The notes beneath the pieces were generated by a model. That model did no database searches, was not told the DNA's origin, and saw only the letters and a list, made by a program, of their open reading frames with translations. Positions 9,110-14,331 of a stretch of 64,000 bases of DNA are shown here, one piece after another. Source of the stretch: Sulfurimonas lithotrophica. GTDB lineage: Bacteria > Campylobacterota > Campylobacteria > Campylobacterales > Sulfurimonadaceae. The position numbers and the translations under genes are program-made. The stretch lies in NCBI RefSeq assembly GCF_009258225.1, contig NZ_CP043617.1, positions 1,178,001-1,242,000 on the forward strand, given 5' to 3'. Numbering within the stretch: the stretch's first letter is position 1; the number at the start of each line of letters is the position of its first letter.

Positions 9110-10054
9110 TCATTTGGTAGCACGTTTTATATTGCTTAAATGTGTAGAATAGTTACATGAGAAATCATGCTCACCGCTCTTTGATTTCATAAAATATAGA
9201 TAATCTGTTTTTGCCGGAAATACTGCGGCCTTTATAGCTTCAAAACCTACATTACAGACTGGAATATCGGGTATGCCGTGGTTTTTATAGGTATTATACA
9301 AGCTGTTGTCTTCGCGAATTCGCTTAGGCGTAATTCTAATATGAGAATATTTTCCATAGTTTAAAGTACCATCCATTTGCAGTTTCATACCTTTTTTAAT
9401 TCTATTATAAATCACTGATGCTACCAACGGCATCTCTTGATTATTTGCCGATTCTTTTTGAATCACTGAAGCAACTGCTACAAAATGAAACCATTTTTTT
9501 TCATTATAGGTACCGAAAAGCTTATAAGATAGTTTTTTCATTTGCTTTTTTGACTCGAAAAGAAGTAATTTTATAAGCATCTCTTCATTTATTCCGATAG
9601 GTATTTTATATGTATCTGGAACAAATGCACCCTCCTCTATCGGTGTGTATTTTTCATACACCTGTTGAAGCTTCCCTCTATTAAGTTTAAGGTTTGTCGA
9701 GAGTTGATTTAAAAATATATATGTTGTTTCCCCCGGTATCAATGTTACGCTAGTCAGTGCCGCTTTTGCTTTTGTTAGTCTATATAAAAAATCTGCTCTT
9801 GTTAAACTTTGCACTCCAATATCAATCCAGCCGCTTTGAGGCGAACCTATTACTCTTAGTAATAGAGAGTCAAGTTTAGATAAATCATAATTATTTCCCG
9901 ACAAATGTGTTATAATCTTATTTATTGAACCATTTGGAATATAGATAATTTTTTTTGACTTGATTGGCTGATTTAGGTAATAAATGAAAGATAAACTTAT
10001 AATTAATAGTATCTCAAAACTATATTTTAGTATTGTTAGCTTTTTTATATTCAT
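9110..10054 (-). CDS. mltG: endolytic murein transglycosylase MltG (YceG-like)
   Basis: Inner-membrane lytic transglycosylase that cuts nascent glycan strands and helps terminate peptidoglycan polymerisation. It has 314 residues, with one N-terminal membrane segment (about 8-26) and then a periplasmic YceG domain. Conserved pieces include VIQKESANNQEMPLVASVIYNRI (catalytic Glu in QKES), KLQMDGTLNYG and YNTYKNHGIPDIPVCN. The start overlaps the start of the divergent AsmA-like gene by 71 bases. No internal ATG/GTG/TTG would preserve the membrane anchor, so the overlap appears real. Confidence 0.9.
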   Translation of the reverse strand: MNIKKLTILKYSFEILLIISLSFIYYLNQPIKSKKIIYIPNGSINKIITHLSGNNYDLSKLDSLLLRVIGSPQSGWIDIGVQSLTRADFLYRLTKAKAALTSVTLIPGETTYIFLNQLSTNLKLNRGKLQQVYEKYTPIEEGAFVPDTYKIPIGINEEMLIKLLLFESKKQMKKLSYKLFGTYNEKKWFHFVAVASVIQKESANNQEMPLVASVIYNRIKKGMKLQMDGTLNYGKYSHIRITPKRIREDNSLYNTYKNHGIPDIPVCNVGFEAIKAAVFPAKTDYLYFMKSKSGEHDFSCNYSTHLSNIKRATK

Positions 10055-13000
10055 TTTATTAACACTTTCTGCAACATATTTACTTTTAAGTTCCGGAGTT
10101 TATCTTAAAAATATTAATTTTAATTCTGTAAGCATAAACAAATTATACATAAAATGGAATGAAAAATTAAATATTCATATACAAGAAATAAATATTTCGG
10201 CTAATGATTCATCTTCAAAAACAGGTTTTTCAAAAACCGACCTTATTTCATATTTAAATAAAATTATTTTTTTGCCGGTGTTTACAGAATCTATCGTTGT
10301 TGAAGATATCAAATACAAAGATATCAAAGCTCATCTAAAATACACTGATGAAGACGGTGGCAATATAGAAATAAATTCAAAAAAACTAAATATTTCCACA
10401 AATATATATACGGGACAAAATTATATCAATGTGTCTATAGATAAATTTAAAAACTCCACAAAAGATATAAACTTAAGCGCTAATATAATACTAGATTCAA
10501 AAAGAAACAAACTTTTTCTTGATTCAAAAATAAACGTTGCAGATGATATATCCTTAAACTTTTTTGCAAGGTCTGATTCAAAAAGATTAGATTATGCTAT
10601 AAAATCAAATAAAACAATTCCAAGCACAAGTTACTTAGTCTCAATACTAAATATTGATCCCAGAGTTGTATATTGGGTAGATACTGCAATAAAAATGGAT
10701 GGATTAGACATCAAACAGGCTTTTGGTTTTATTGAATATGACAAAATGGATGAGGCACTTGAAAATTTTTATGCATACGGTACTGCTAATAATTTAGAAT
10801 ACACTTATGACCGGAAGCTTGACTCTATTAAAACAAAATATACGGAGCTGTTTTTTAAAGACGGCGTTCTTTTTATACTGCCCAATGAATCCAAAACTTA
10901 TAATTTTAACTTGGATGCGAGCTGGCTTAGAATAGATTTTACAAAACCAAAAGAGATACTTACACTGCATCTGCTTTTTGACGGTATTGTAAACAAGGAT
11001 TTAAAAAATCTTTTAGAACGCTACAAGATAAAACTACCTTTTATCCAAAATAGCGGTTATATGGATACAAATTTAATCCTAGAAATAAATTTGCAATCAC
11101 TGGACGTAGATGCCAAAGGTGAGTTCTACACAGATAATGCAAATTTTAACTACCTAGGTCTTAATCTTGACCTAAAAGACACTCTTGTAAAACTTCATAA
11201 TTTTGATGTAAGAATACCTAAAATGTCTGCAAAATATAAAGATATCGCAGATGCGGACGTAAACGCAGTTTTGGATTTAAAAAACTCTCTAGGCTTTATA
11301 GATTTTGATTTTAAAAAGATATTTTTCGGTGACGCATTAAAATTAAATACAAAAGAAAATCCACTAAACGTAAAATACCTTATATCTCCAAAACAAGATA
11401 AAATCGAATTAGATAGTTCAAAATGGCTTTTTAATAAACAAAATATGAATATTGAAGCCATTAGCATCCCTTTTGATTTGAAAAATCTAACAGCAGATAT
11501 TCCAACATCCGAATTATCTATAAACGATATGCTGACTGCATATATTTCAGGCAAAGTAAATCTAAAAAAGCTTAAGTTTGATTTAGAGGCAGATTTAGTG
11601 AAATTCAAATACAAGAATATCAAATTAGCTCAAGCAGATGCACATCTAAAAGCTATTTATGAAAATAAAAAACTTACTCTTACATCCATAGAACCTATAA
11701 ATTTAGACGCAAGCAAACAAGACGTTAAACTTGAAAAACTAAAAGTTATATATCACGATAATTTAGTAGATGCAAAAAGCTCAAATACAGAAATAAAAAA
11801 TCTTTTAAACACAGGTTTTAATTTAAGATACTCTTTTAAAAACAAAAGTGGCTATTTAAATCTTAATAAATTAAATTTTAATAATGACGCTCTTGGTAAA
11901 ATATTTAAAAAAAATAATAATGTTGAGTTTAAAATAAGATCTACAAATGAACAATTTGTAGTTAACTCAAAAGAATTAAAAGTATCTGCATTTATTACAC
12001 CCCAGCAATGGGTACTGGCTTTTAACTCCTTAAATAAATTAATGCCTTATTCTCCTTTTTTACAAAAATACCAGATAGATAACGGAAATTTTTCTATCTA
12101 CAAAAGGGAGAGTGAAGAAAATATTAAATTTTTAGCAAAAGTTGATTATAAACATACCCTATTGCATCTAGGCGGAAAAAATATTTCAAACTATACAATC
12201 AAAGGTGAAATAGATAACAGCAATAATACTTCCTATATGGAGATAAACGACAAAGTTAATGTTAACGTCGCAAACGACATTATCGCAATTAAAGGGAGCA
12301 ATGTAGGAATCAACCTAAATAAAACAGTAGATTTAATAAATGAAATAAGCTCCACAAACCAAAAACCTTCAAAGTCTCATATATCATTATCTTTTGACAA
12401 CTCTTATATATATTTGAGTGATCAAAGACGTGTTATAGCAGACAGCATGGAACTTCAATATTTAAATGAAATAGTTACTGCTCAAATAAAATATAAAGAT
12501 GCAGAAGCAGGTTTTAAATATAAAAAAAGAAAATTCCATTTATACGGTTCCGGTTTTAACAGTTTATTTATGGAAAACCTTTTTGCACTCTCAAAATTTA
12601 AAGGCGGTTCACTAGATTTTTCAATAAAGGGAGATATAGACGAGTTTGGCGGGGTTATATACATCAAAGACACTACTATTAAAAAATTTAGACTTTTAAA
12701 TAATATTCTTGCTTTTGTAAATACCGTACCGTCTTTGGTAACATTTTCTCTTCCCTCATATAACACAAGGGGTCTTCACACTAAATCAGCATATATGAAA
12801 TTTTCATATAAAAACCATATTTATGATATTAGCGATATATATCTTGATTCTAAAGAACTAGATATATTGGGTCACGGAAAAACAAACATTAAAAACGATT
12901 CTATAGATATGGAACTGAATTTAAAAACCGATTTAGCTAGTGAAGCCTCGAAGATACCGCTTGTCGGATATATACTTTTTGATAAAGACAGCATATCGAC

Positions 13001-13127
13001 TACTGTTAAATTAGACGGAAAATTAAGTGACCCAAATATTAAATCGATGCTGCCAAAAGAGATAATAGTAGCACCGATAAATATAATAAAAAGAACTCTT
13101 CTGTTACCTTTTAATATATTTAATTAA
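9984..13127 (+). CDS. large AsmA-like / DUF3971-type envelope protein
   Basis: A 1047-residue protein with one N-terminal membrane segment (about 15-37) and then a long periplasmic region rich in alternating beta-strand patterns, Lys and Asn. The C-terminal part (about 840-1040: GGSLDFSIKGDIDEFGG, then LGHGKTNIKNDSIDMELNLKT and ISTTVKLDGKLSDPN) resembles the AsmA C-terminal region of YhdP/TamB-like proteins. Such proteins are thought to bridge the periplasm and move phospholipids. Start ATG at 9984 overlaps mltG head to head. Its stop is one base from the convergent permease gene. Function is by family analogy only. Confidence 0.75.
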   Translation: MKDKLIINSISKLYFSIVSFFIFILLTLSATYLLLSSGVYLKNINFNSVSINKLYIKWNEKLNIHIQEINISANDSSSKTGFSKTDLISYLNKIIFLPVFTESIVVEDIKYKDIKAHLKYTDEDGGNIEINSKKLNISTNIYTGQNYINVSIDKFKNSTKDINLSANIILDSKRNKLFLDSKINVADDISLNFFARSDSKRLDYAIKSNKTIPSTSYLVSILNIDPRVVYWVDTAIKMDGLDIKQAFGFIEYDKMDEALENFYAYGTANNLEYTYDRKLDSIKTKYTELFFKDGVLFILPNESKTYNFNLDASWLRIDFTKPKEILTLHLLFDGIVNKDLKNLLERYKIKLPFIQNSGYMDTNLILEINLQSLDVDAKGEFYTDNANFNYLGLNLDLKDTLVKLHNFDVRIPKMSAKYKDIADADVNAVLDLKNSLGFIDFDFKKIFFGDALKLNTKENPLNVKYLISPKQDKIELDSSKWLFNKQNMNIEAISIPFDLKNLTADIPTSELSINDMLTAYISGKVNLKKLKFDLEADLVKFKYKNIKLAQADAHLKAIYENKKLTLTSIEPINLDASKQDVKLEKLKVIYHDNLVDAKSSNTEIKNLLNTGFNLRYSFKNKSGYLNLNKLNFNNDALGKIFKKNNNVEFKIRSTNEQFVVNSKELKVSAFITPQQWVLAFNSLNKLMPYSPFLQKYQIDNGNFSIYKRESEENIKFLAKVDYKHTLLHLGGKNISNYTIKGEIDNSNNTSYMEINDKVNVNVANDIIAIKGSNVGINLNKTVDLINEISSTNQKPSKSHISLSFDNSYIYLSDQRRVIADSMELQYLNEIVTAQIKYKDAEAGFKYKKRKFHLYGSGFNSLFMENLFALSKFKGGSLDFSIKGDIDEFGGVIYIKDTTIKKFRLLNNILAFVNTVPSLVTFSLPSYNTRGLHTKSAYMKFSYKNHIYDISDIYLDSKELDILGHGKTNIKNDSIDMELNLKTDLASEASKIPLVGYILFDKDSISTTVKLDGKLSDPNIKSMLPKEIIVAPINIIKRTLLLPFNIFN

Positions 13128-13128
13128 A

Positions 13129-14331
13129 CTATTCGTTTCTAAGAACTGTTAATATATCTACTTCACTGGCTTTTTTCGCAGGATAAAATGAAGATGCTAT
13201 AACAATAACAAAAGCTCCCGATATAATTAAAAGAAAATCTTTTAAACTTAGGTCAAGAGGTAAAGATGTCGTCGGATATACATCTTTAGGTAAAGAAACA
13301 ATGTCAAATGTCGATAGAATCCACATACCGCTTAATCCAAGCACTACACCTGCAAAAATCCCACTTATACCGATAACGATACCTAGATATAAAAATATCT
13401 TTTTAATTTCTGTTTTTGTAGCACCTAAAGACATAAGTAACGCTATATCGCTTCTTCTATTCATAACAGTCATAAGCAGTGATGAAATAATGTTTATGGC
13501 CGCTATAAGTATAATCAACATTAAAACTATAAATAAAGATACTTTTTCAAGCTCTAGTGCCGCAAAAAAGTTAACATTATCTTCCCACCAGCCTTTTATG
13601 GAAACATTTGGCGGCAATACTTTTTGAATCTTTTGAATATCTGAATGTGGGTCTGATGAAAAAATATGTATCCCGTCATACTGATTTGAAGGTATTCTCA
13701 AAAGTTTTTGCAAAGACTCAATCGTAGTATAGCTATATGCTTTATCGTAAGCACTAAGTCCAGAATCAAAAACCCCTTTAACTTTAAAACGTTTTATTCT
13801 AGGCGTTACGGACAACCCACCCGGTTCAGCACTCGTAAATATATACATAAGTTTATCATCTAAAAAGATATCAAACTCATCTTTTAAACTTTTTCCCACA
13901 AGGACATCAAACTTTCCAAAATTTGTGTCTTCTATAGCTTTTGCCAATATTTTATTAACTTTGGCTTCATCATTAAAATTTACGCCAAAAATATATCCAC
14001 CTTCCAGTTTCGCACCACTTCTGGTCATGACGGTTGACTGAACATAAGGACTAAACTCTAAGTTGGGAAACTTAGTTTCTAAATCTAAAAGAAGTTTTTC
14101 GTTTGTAGCGCCGTAAAATTTGGGTATAACAGTTAAAGGGTAGTTCATAACGGTAAGTTTTTTTCTAAACTCGTTATCAAAGCCGTTCATAAGCGACATG
14201 GCTATAATTAAAACCATTACACCCAAAGATATGCCTAAAAAAGCAAGCATAGCAGACAAAAAGATAAAAGGTTGATCCTTGTCAAACCTTAAAAATCTTT
14301 TTACCAAATATGGTATTAGTTTCTTTTTCAA
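13129..14331 (-). CDS. ABC transporter permease of the LolC/LolE (FtsX-like) family
   Basis: Inner-membrane permease of 400 residues with the LolC/E layout: a membrane segment at about 22-45, a large periplasmic domain at about 50-265, and three membrane segments at about 270-390. The N-terminal [36 protein letters not shown] is typical. It probably extracts lipoproteins for LolA, whose gene is about 2.8 kb away. The start is TTG, sharing TTGA with the secA stop (4-base overlap). Whether it is a LolC/E hybrid (LolF) or another exporter is not decided; no ATPase gene is adjacent. Confidence 0.82.

Follow-up and report, generated by a model that had tools for sequence, protein, structure and literature searches.

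The mltG-yhdP locus

The locus lies within a 64,000-nucleotide stretch of the Sulfurimonas lithotrophica genome (contig NZ_CP043617.1, positions 1,178,001 to 1,242,000), referred to here as the window, to which all coordinates below refer. It comprises two genes read in opposite directions whose 5' ends occupy the same DNA. The genes and their junction are as follows.

9110..10054, minus strand: mltG (YceG) gene, 314 aa with an N-terminal signal anchor, assigned by ORF and Pfam PF02618
9984..13127, plus strand: yhdP-like (AsmA-superfamily) gene, 1047 aa with an N-terminal signal anchor, assigned by ORF and Pfam PF13116
9984..10054, both strands: coding overlap of 71 bp, phase 123:213, wobble position opposite wobble position
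9981..9983, plus strand: in-frame stop codon TAA abutting the yhdP ATG, which pins the yhdP start

The MltG protein matched the PF02618 (YceG) model with an E-value of 1.2e-54 and 186.1 bits (curated cut-off of 32.4) over residues 38-311, and the YhdP protein matched PF13116 with an E-value of 1e-25 and 90.4 bits (curated cut-off of 46) over residues 229-1019. Assignment to the MltG/YceG and to the YhdP/AsmA-like families called for a domain score above the cut-off together with an N-terminal anchor, and both proteins comply, the anchors extending over residues 6-24 and 17-35, respectively. The overlap comprises the first 71 bases, or nearly 24 codons, of both genes, read on opposite strands. 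The original prediction had placed a shared stretch of 71 bases at exactly these coordinates, and both the coordinates and the observation held when compared with the ORF list and the sequence of the window. In this phase the third codon positions of the two genes are opposed, and first and second positions are swapped.

The genes around yhdP in the window lie on the minus strand, and no other long plus-strand gene interrupts them; this opposed orientation is reminiscent of a noncontiguous operon. At its 3' end (13127-13129) the yhdP stop codon is separated by 1 bp from that of a convergent permease gene.

Overlap of this kind is rare in this genome. A simple codon-usage gene caller, applied to the window and twenty further stretches (464 kb in all), yielded 42 divergent pairs, and with the longest starts only mltG/yhdP overlaps (1/42). 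When up to 10% was trimmed off each gene no pair overlapped (0/42, mltG/yhdP included); for mltG/yhdP, such trimming would remove both anchors.

Start codons and membrane anchors

Position 10054 is the most upstream mltG start in the ORF list. A start-codon scan around the junction, which for mltG covered 40 codons downstream, found no second in-frame ATG, GTG or TTG for either gene in the window. From these starts the predicted products begin with MKDKL (YhdP) and MNIKK (MltG). The original claim that no alternative start keeps the anchor therefore stands for both frames. The hydrophobic cores of the two anchors were located with a 19-residue Kyte-Doolittle window.

9983..10039, minus strand: MltG anchor hydrophobic core, residues 6-24, hydropathy of 1.86
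10032..10088, plus strand: YhdP anchor hydrophobic core, residues 17-35, hydropathy of 2.44

The cores are staggered, with only ~8 bp common to both, and this refines the original view that each frame of the shared DNA gives a transmembrane segment: the two cores are different DNA. Over its remaining length, the overlap largely sets a Lys/Asn-rich tail from one protein against a Phe/Leu-rich segment from the other. Lys/Asn codons (AAN) face Phe/Leu codons (TTN) at 8 of 24 pairings, Ile/Met codons (ATN) face Ile/Met codons at 7 and Leu codons (CTN) face Ser codons (AGN) at 5.

How readily such an arrangement can be encoded was apparent from 60 N-terminal anchors sampled in the same 464 kb, from which the mltG/yhdP pair itself was not removed. 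The antisense frame was open in 44/60 anchors in the phase of the overlap and in only 2 and 3 of 60 in the other two phases, and in the former phase it was also hydrophobic in 11/60. Double hydrophobicity by chance was accordingly rejected as the remarkable point of the locus. The genetic code makes an anchor overlap of this type easy to form, and it is its conservation that is remarkable.

In two metagenome contigs, L171 (~4992) and L172 (~3865), both on the mltG strand, ATA stands in place of the conserved mltG start codon, with no in-frame ATG, GTG or TTG before the mltG anchor; the yhdP ATG sits where a 71-bp overlap would place it. The ATA codon is explained by a non-standard start or else by faulty assembly.

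Conservation of the overlap across the order

A search for mltG in 79 relatives returned a match in 73, the remaining six being absent from the junction comparison, and a family search in 121 genomes of the phylum returned a match in all 121; all genomes listed belong to the window's order. The resulting junction set comprised 178 mltG loci in 176 genomes, which are related and thus not independent samples. An ORF of at least 240 codons lies divergent from mltG in 168/176 genomes, and 164 of these 168 facing ORFs, distributed over 16 of 21 families, have the codon phase seen in the window. The YhdP model PF13116 scored above its cut-off for 10/10 facing proteins scanned, which were drawn singly from ten other families out of a list of 15 family representatives.

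When the most downstream starts that spare the hydrophobic core were imposed on both genes, the overlap remained in 156/164 genomes, in five the genes came out 4-13 bp apart and three were undetermined. This core-sparing rule is crude and yields an implausible 317 bp for family f3. With a single candidate start per gene near the junction in the window and the overlap retained in 156/164 genomes elsewhere, start choice cannot do away with the overlap in the window or in most of the other genomes.

In the window's own family (f1) the overlap measures 71 bp in 42/47 genomes, and the other lengths, 65 bp (two genomes), 77 bp (two) and 74 bp (one), differ from it by multiples of 3. A stop codon lies 0 or 1 codon ahead of the first yhdP ATG in all 47. 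By rule, the yhdP start was set at the first ATG found within eight codons, and the mltG start at whichever ATG gave an overlap closest to 71 bp, several genomes in this comparison having additional in-frame mltG ATGs. The set of 47 represents the 49 family-f1 genomes minus G036, removed by the phase filter, and G004, which has no early yhdP ATG. Outside this family the length differs, Campylobacter volucris having an 83-bp and C. coli an 86-bp overlap. The overlap is thus kept in orthologues, with the same length in 42/47 genomes and the same phase in 164/168, and this conservation rules out chance.

Exceptions were few. The facing ORF of G036 is off-phase through a downstream frame break, its N-terminal ORF being in the usual phase, and that of G063, also off-phase, is a different-looking ORF without a YhdP match. 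In G095 (L238) and G127 (L197), which belong to one genus of family f11, mltG and yhdP are divergent with an intergenic region between them. Both genes are kept, separated, in these two genomes, and the interlock is therefore not indispensable. In eight genomes no ORF faces mltG, and a YhdP search of all eight gave a single hit, in G058; that hit lies on a different contig and scores under the curated cut-off. In the comparison genomes G071, G095 and G127, where the genes are paired or adjacent, this search was positive, and a miss is no proof of absence.

Some loci showed other peculiarities. The mltG match of G004 (L060) holds a stop, the mltG frame being interrupted in the assembly, and in G036 (L058) it is the yhdP frame that is interrupted. 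Two genomes of family f6, G071 (L090, L102) and G159 (L268, L285), carry two mltG-like genes each, and in G071 a yhdP-like gene lies opposite just one of them.

Both strands of the overlap are protein-coding

Across the 42 genomes with a 71-bp overlap, average pairwise differences in the overlap at codon positions 1, 2 and 3 (yhdP numbering) were 0.234, 0.246 and 0.494, respectively. The corresponding values were 0.421, 0.163 and 0.450 for codons 25-62 of yhdP, and 0.278, 0.125 and 0.443 for codons 25-62 of mltG. Positions 1 and 2 are therefore equally constrained within the overlap, as two coding frames in this phase predict. In 21 aligned rows, both proteins likewise have N-termini with the appearance of conserved anchors. 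Equal constraint at positions 1 and 2 together with anchor-like N-termini satisfies what is expected if both frames code through the overlap. The mltG/yhdP overlap is thus neither a product of chance nor a misannotation; dual coding is established here by sequence comparison, without proteomic or ribosome-profiling data.

Facing -10 boxes embedded in the partner genes

Synonymous constraint, measured as codon choice at conserved amino acids relative to each gene's own usage, extends ~110 nt beyond the overlap into each gene. Excess identity in yhdP codons 25-62 was 0.172, a value reached by 0/818 later windows (maximum of 0.086), and in mltG codons 25-62 it was 0.161, reached by 0/204 later windows, although here the maximum of 0.160 was barely exceeded. 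In two control genes from the same loci the equivalent value was reached far more freely, in 68/279 windows of the permease gene (34 sequences) and in 71/195 windows of icd (40 sequences). Codons 2-24 were also raised in the pair (0.133 and 0.134), but icd reached 0.165; since this control is as biased as the pair, codon bias in the first 24 codons was discarded as evidence and only codons 25-62 were counted. The constrained regions contain the following elements.

9908..9916, plus strand: predicted yhdP promoter, extended -10 element TGT-TATAAT (hexamer at 9911-9916), inside mltG codons 47-49
10142..10147, minus strand: predicted mltG promoter, -10 hexamer TATAAT, inside yhdP codons 53-55
9974..9977, plus strand: putative Shine-Dalgarno sequence of yhdP (TAGG), inside mltG codons 26-27, assignment inferred
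10065..10070, minus strand: putative Shine-Dalgarno sequence of mltG (AGAAAG), inside yhdP codons 28-29, inferred and weak

An exact TATAAT scan of both strands in 47 genomes, comprising 1864 column-strand positions in mltG and 5946 in yhdP, identified antisense nt 139 as the best column in mltG (46/47; next best 25) and antisense nt 159 as the best in yhdP (34/47; next best 11). The box within mltG precedes the yhdP start by 68 nt, and the one within yhdP precedes the mltG start by 88 nt. The mltG box has an alternative antisense site at nt 114 of yhdP, 45 nt nearer the mltG start, which is occupied in 11/47 genomes. One site or the other is occupied in 45/47 family-f1 genomes, never both, and, the boxes being predicted promoters, this is interpreted as a promoter shift inside coding sequence.

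Codon choice beneath the boxes is correspondingly narrow. The mltG codons within the yhdP box are ATT in 47/47 and ATA in 46/47 genomes, and Leu54 of YhdP is encoded by TTA in 34/36, compared with 26% TTA among Leu codons in the gene body; the mltG hexamer is therefore conserved beyond the need of the protein. Under the putative yhdP ribosome site, Leu27 of MltG is CTA in 42/47 and Tyr26 is TAC in 45/46, and under the putative mltG site, Leu28 of YhdP is CTT in 27/37.

In family f11, which includes Campylobacter, both boxes are exact in 44/44 in-phase genomes. In C. coli (L182) the boxes end 103 nt ahead of the yhdP ATG and 36 nt ahead of the mltG ATG. The boxes are weaker in family f14, where they are exact in 21/39 (yhdP) and 13/39 (mltG) genomes and within one mismatch in 25/39 and 39/39, respectively. 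Campylobacter sigma-70 promoters have an extended -10 element, TGxTATAAT, without a -35 element (PMC3656092). TGx precedes the yhdP box in 44/47 f1 genomes versus 12/44 f11 genomes, and in the window's mltG box the TG abuts the hexamer rather than lying one base away, so that the TGx spacing is missing.

These data show by sequence comparison that conserved, facing -10 boxes are buried in the partner genes. The original argument, which placed each promoter of necessity within the partner gene, is supported by the conserved antisense TATAAT columns; that the boxes are active promoters remains an inference in the absence of transcript data. A generic promoter scan, which returned 10 sites against 12.3 expected in shuffled sequence, was not used as evidence; it misses both boxes because it requires a -35 hexamer.

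Spacing of the boxes and a proposed mechanism

The gap between the facing -10 hexamers is exactly 225 bp in 85/164 in-phase genomes belonging to seven families (f1 34/48, f11 41/44, f14 3/40, f20 3/3, f10 2/2, f2 1/1 and f22 1/1). Gaps of 180 bp (11 genomes, with the moved mltG box) and 250 bp (five genomes) rank next in frequency. The exact box pair is absent from families f4, f15 and f18 and from 34/40 f14 genomes. The safest overlap lengths come from 18 genomes with boxes 225 bp apart and a single ATG per gene between them, in which the overlap ranges from 41 to 86 bp at the constant gap. The start codons have thus shifted while the length of the DNA block stayed fixed. This constancy may possibly reflect no more than the barring of indels from doubly used coding DNA.

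If transcription is assumed to start ~7 nt after each -10 hexamer, the 5' ends of the two mRNAs would be complementary over the following interval.

9923..10135, both strands: predicted complementary 5' stretch of both mRNAs, ~213 nt, inferred and unmeasured

The conserved boxes thereby predict an mRNA overlap of ~210 nt, for which there are no RNA data. The original suggestion that the two genes could interfere transcriptionally follows from this geometry of facing promoters and complementary 5' RNA; it too is inferred and unmeasured. The staggered cores, the order-wide conservation and the ease of encoding through codon complementarity lay beyond the view of that prediction.

The reading that we consider likely is that mltG and yhdP constitute an ancient interlocked divergent gene pair. 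In this model, the sigma-70-type promoter of each gene (a -10 element with no clear -35), its leader and its ribosome site would all lie within the first ~60 codons of the partner. A polymerase fired from one promoter would run through the facing promoter, and the first ~210 nt of each mRNA would be antisense to the leader, ribosome site and start of the partner. Collision or occlusion, together with RNA-RNA pairing of the leaders, would then lead to mutual dampening in cis, in an excludon-like manner, and the output of the glycan-strand terminator MltG and of the lipid-transport-type YhdP would be coupled in cis. Formation of the overlap would be explained by its phase, which makes a positively charged tail plus a hydrophobic anchor nearly its own complement, and the interlock would persist, at least partly, since moving an anchor or a promoter would harm the partner. 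Both the interference and the transcription starts are inferred, without transcript, ribosome-profiling or proteomic data.

Comparison with known systems

The excludon, reportedly described by Sesto et al. in 2013 and reviewed in PMC7154746, resembles the arrangement predicted here in that mRNAs of neighbouring genes overlap and each is antisense to the other. In contrast, the mltG/yhdP mRNA overlap is predicted to be short and symmetrical, takes in coding sequence of both genes and is kept in many families, and mutual exclusion has not been measured for this pair. Face-to-face (convergent) promoters with transcriptional interference are exemplified by pR and pL of coliphage 186. Interference between convergent promoters has been studied (PMC6593788). 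There, as predicted for mltG and yhdP, two promoters fire toward each other over a short interval; the predicted promoters of mltG and yhdP differ in being embedded in the protein-coding DNA of the partner and in belonging to chromosomal envelope genes.

The orientation class and the 123:213 phase of the overlap have been surveyed previously. Palleja et al. (2008) identified 75 divergent overlaps longer than 60 bp in 338 genomes, judged all of them to be start errors and proposed a rule flagging long divergent overlaps as errors; their set was confined to pairs of genes in KEGG pathways (PMC2478687). A statistical study of 58 species found divergent overlaps to be under-represented, with 123:213 as the commonest phase (59% of 331; PMC2174442). 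The mltG/yhdP overlap differs from those judged to be start errors in being conserved and in passing a dual-coding test. Noncontiguous operons (PMC7154746) likewise contain an oppositely read gene inside a same-strand run, but mltG itself is preceded by a conserved candidate promoter, and co-transcription across yhdP is hypothetical.

No earlier description of the mltG/yhdP overlap was found in the open-licence literature searched, supplementary tables being outside the scope of the search. Cj0530, which with Cj0529c we take to be the yhdP/mltG pair of Campylobacter jejuni, is named only as a periplasmic protein (PMC6421344, PMC5135748).

Alternative explanations

Start misannotation, in which one gene would begin farther downstream and no coding overlap would exist, draws support from the finding that 75/75 long divergent overlaps were judged start errors (PMC2478687), and from the fact that trimming each gene by up to 10% separates even this pair, at the cost of the anchors. 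No alternative start in the window retains either anchor, however, both proteins have conserved anchor-like N-termini, and the overlap, whose phase is almost invariant, shows equal constraint at positions 1 and 2; misannotation is thus largely refuted and very unlikely. A second proposal, which we regard as unlikely, dispenses with a promoter for mltG, the gene being read through from the upstream secA-permease genes across antisense yhdP as a noncontiguous operon, with the antisense TATAAT a by-product of a conserved K-L-Y motif. In its favour, yhdP is the sole long plus-strand gene among minus-strand genes, its stop lies 1 bp from that of the permease, and the yhdP-permease gap is at most 20 bp in 33/36 family-f1 genomes (13 not being usable). 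No terminator-like site was found in 12900-13400, but as only 0.2 such sites are expected by chance this absence says little. Against it, the TTA preference at Leu54 keeps the hexamer beyond protein need, and Campylobacter volucris (L072) lacks a permease match within 7.5 kb, in a family (f11) that keeps the box in 44/44 genomes.

The main rival to the interlocked, mutually dampening pair concerns why the overlap persists. Under neutral lock-in the overlap and the embedded promoters are real and without regulatory purpose, having arisen once by drift and being hard to undo, since separation needs a duplication that spares both anchors and both promoters. It is favoured by the variation in overlap length between families (41-86 bp where one ATG per gene lies between the boxes), by the displacement of one box (from nt 159 to nt 114 in 11/47 genomes) without any unlocking of the pair, by the escape of one genus that now has an intergenic region, and by a codon phase that makes dual anchors easy; YhdP in just one of the eight genomes without a facing ORF also hints at gene loss more often than separation. 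The exact 225-bp gap, recurring in seven families, is more than tolerance needs, but this is not decisive with indels barred. Indeed, because indels are barred in DNA used by two genes, broad retention and fixed spacing fit either selection or lock-in, and we find the case for lock-in evenly balanced. The escape of G095 and G127 and the promoter shift indicate that the layout can change. A bolder form of the dampening model, which can only be put forward as a possibility, is an order-wide see-saw in cis, its promoters held 225 bp apart by selection so as to couple strand termination by MltG with the supply of phospholipid to the outer membrane by YhdP.

Significance

What is new here is a head-to-head overlap that is real and deeply conserved and in which each gene carries the predicted promoter of the other, promoter activity being inferred. 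The locus provides a counter-example, backed by comparative evidence of dual coding, to the survey conclusion that no divergent overlap longer than 60 bp is real (PMC2478687), and it suggests a general coding reason for head-to-head overlap of anchors, namely that a charged tail and a hydrophobic core are near complements. The order supplies many natural replicates, including one genus in which the genes are unlinked, for deciding whether embedded facing promoters are regulatory or simply trapped. If the see-saw reading is true, the mltG/yhdP pair could be one of the oldest cases in bacteria of a dual-coding head-to-head overlap put to regulatory use.
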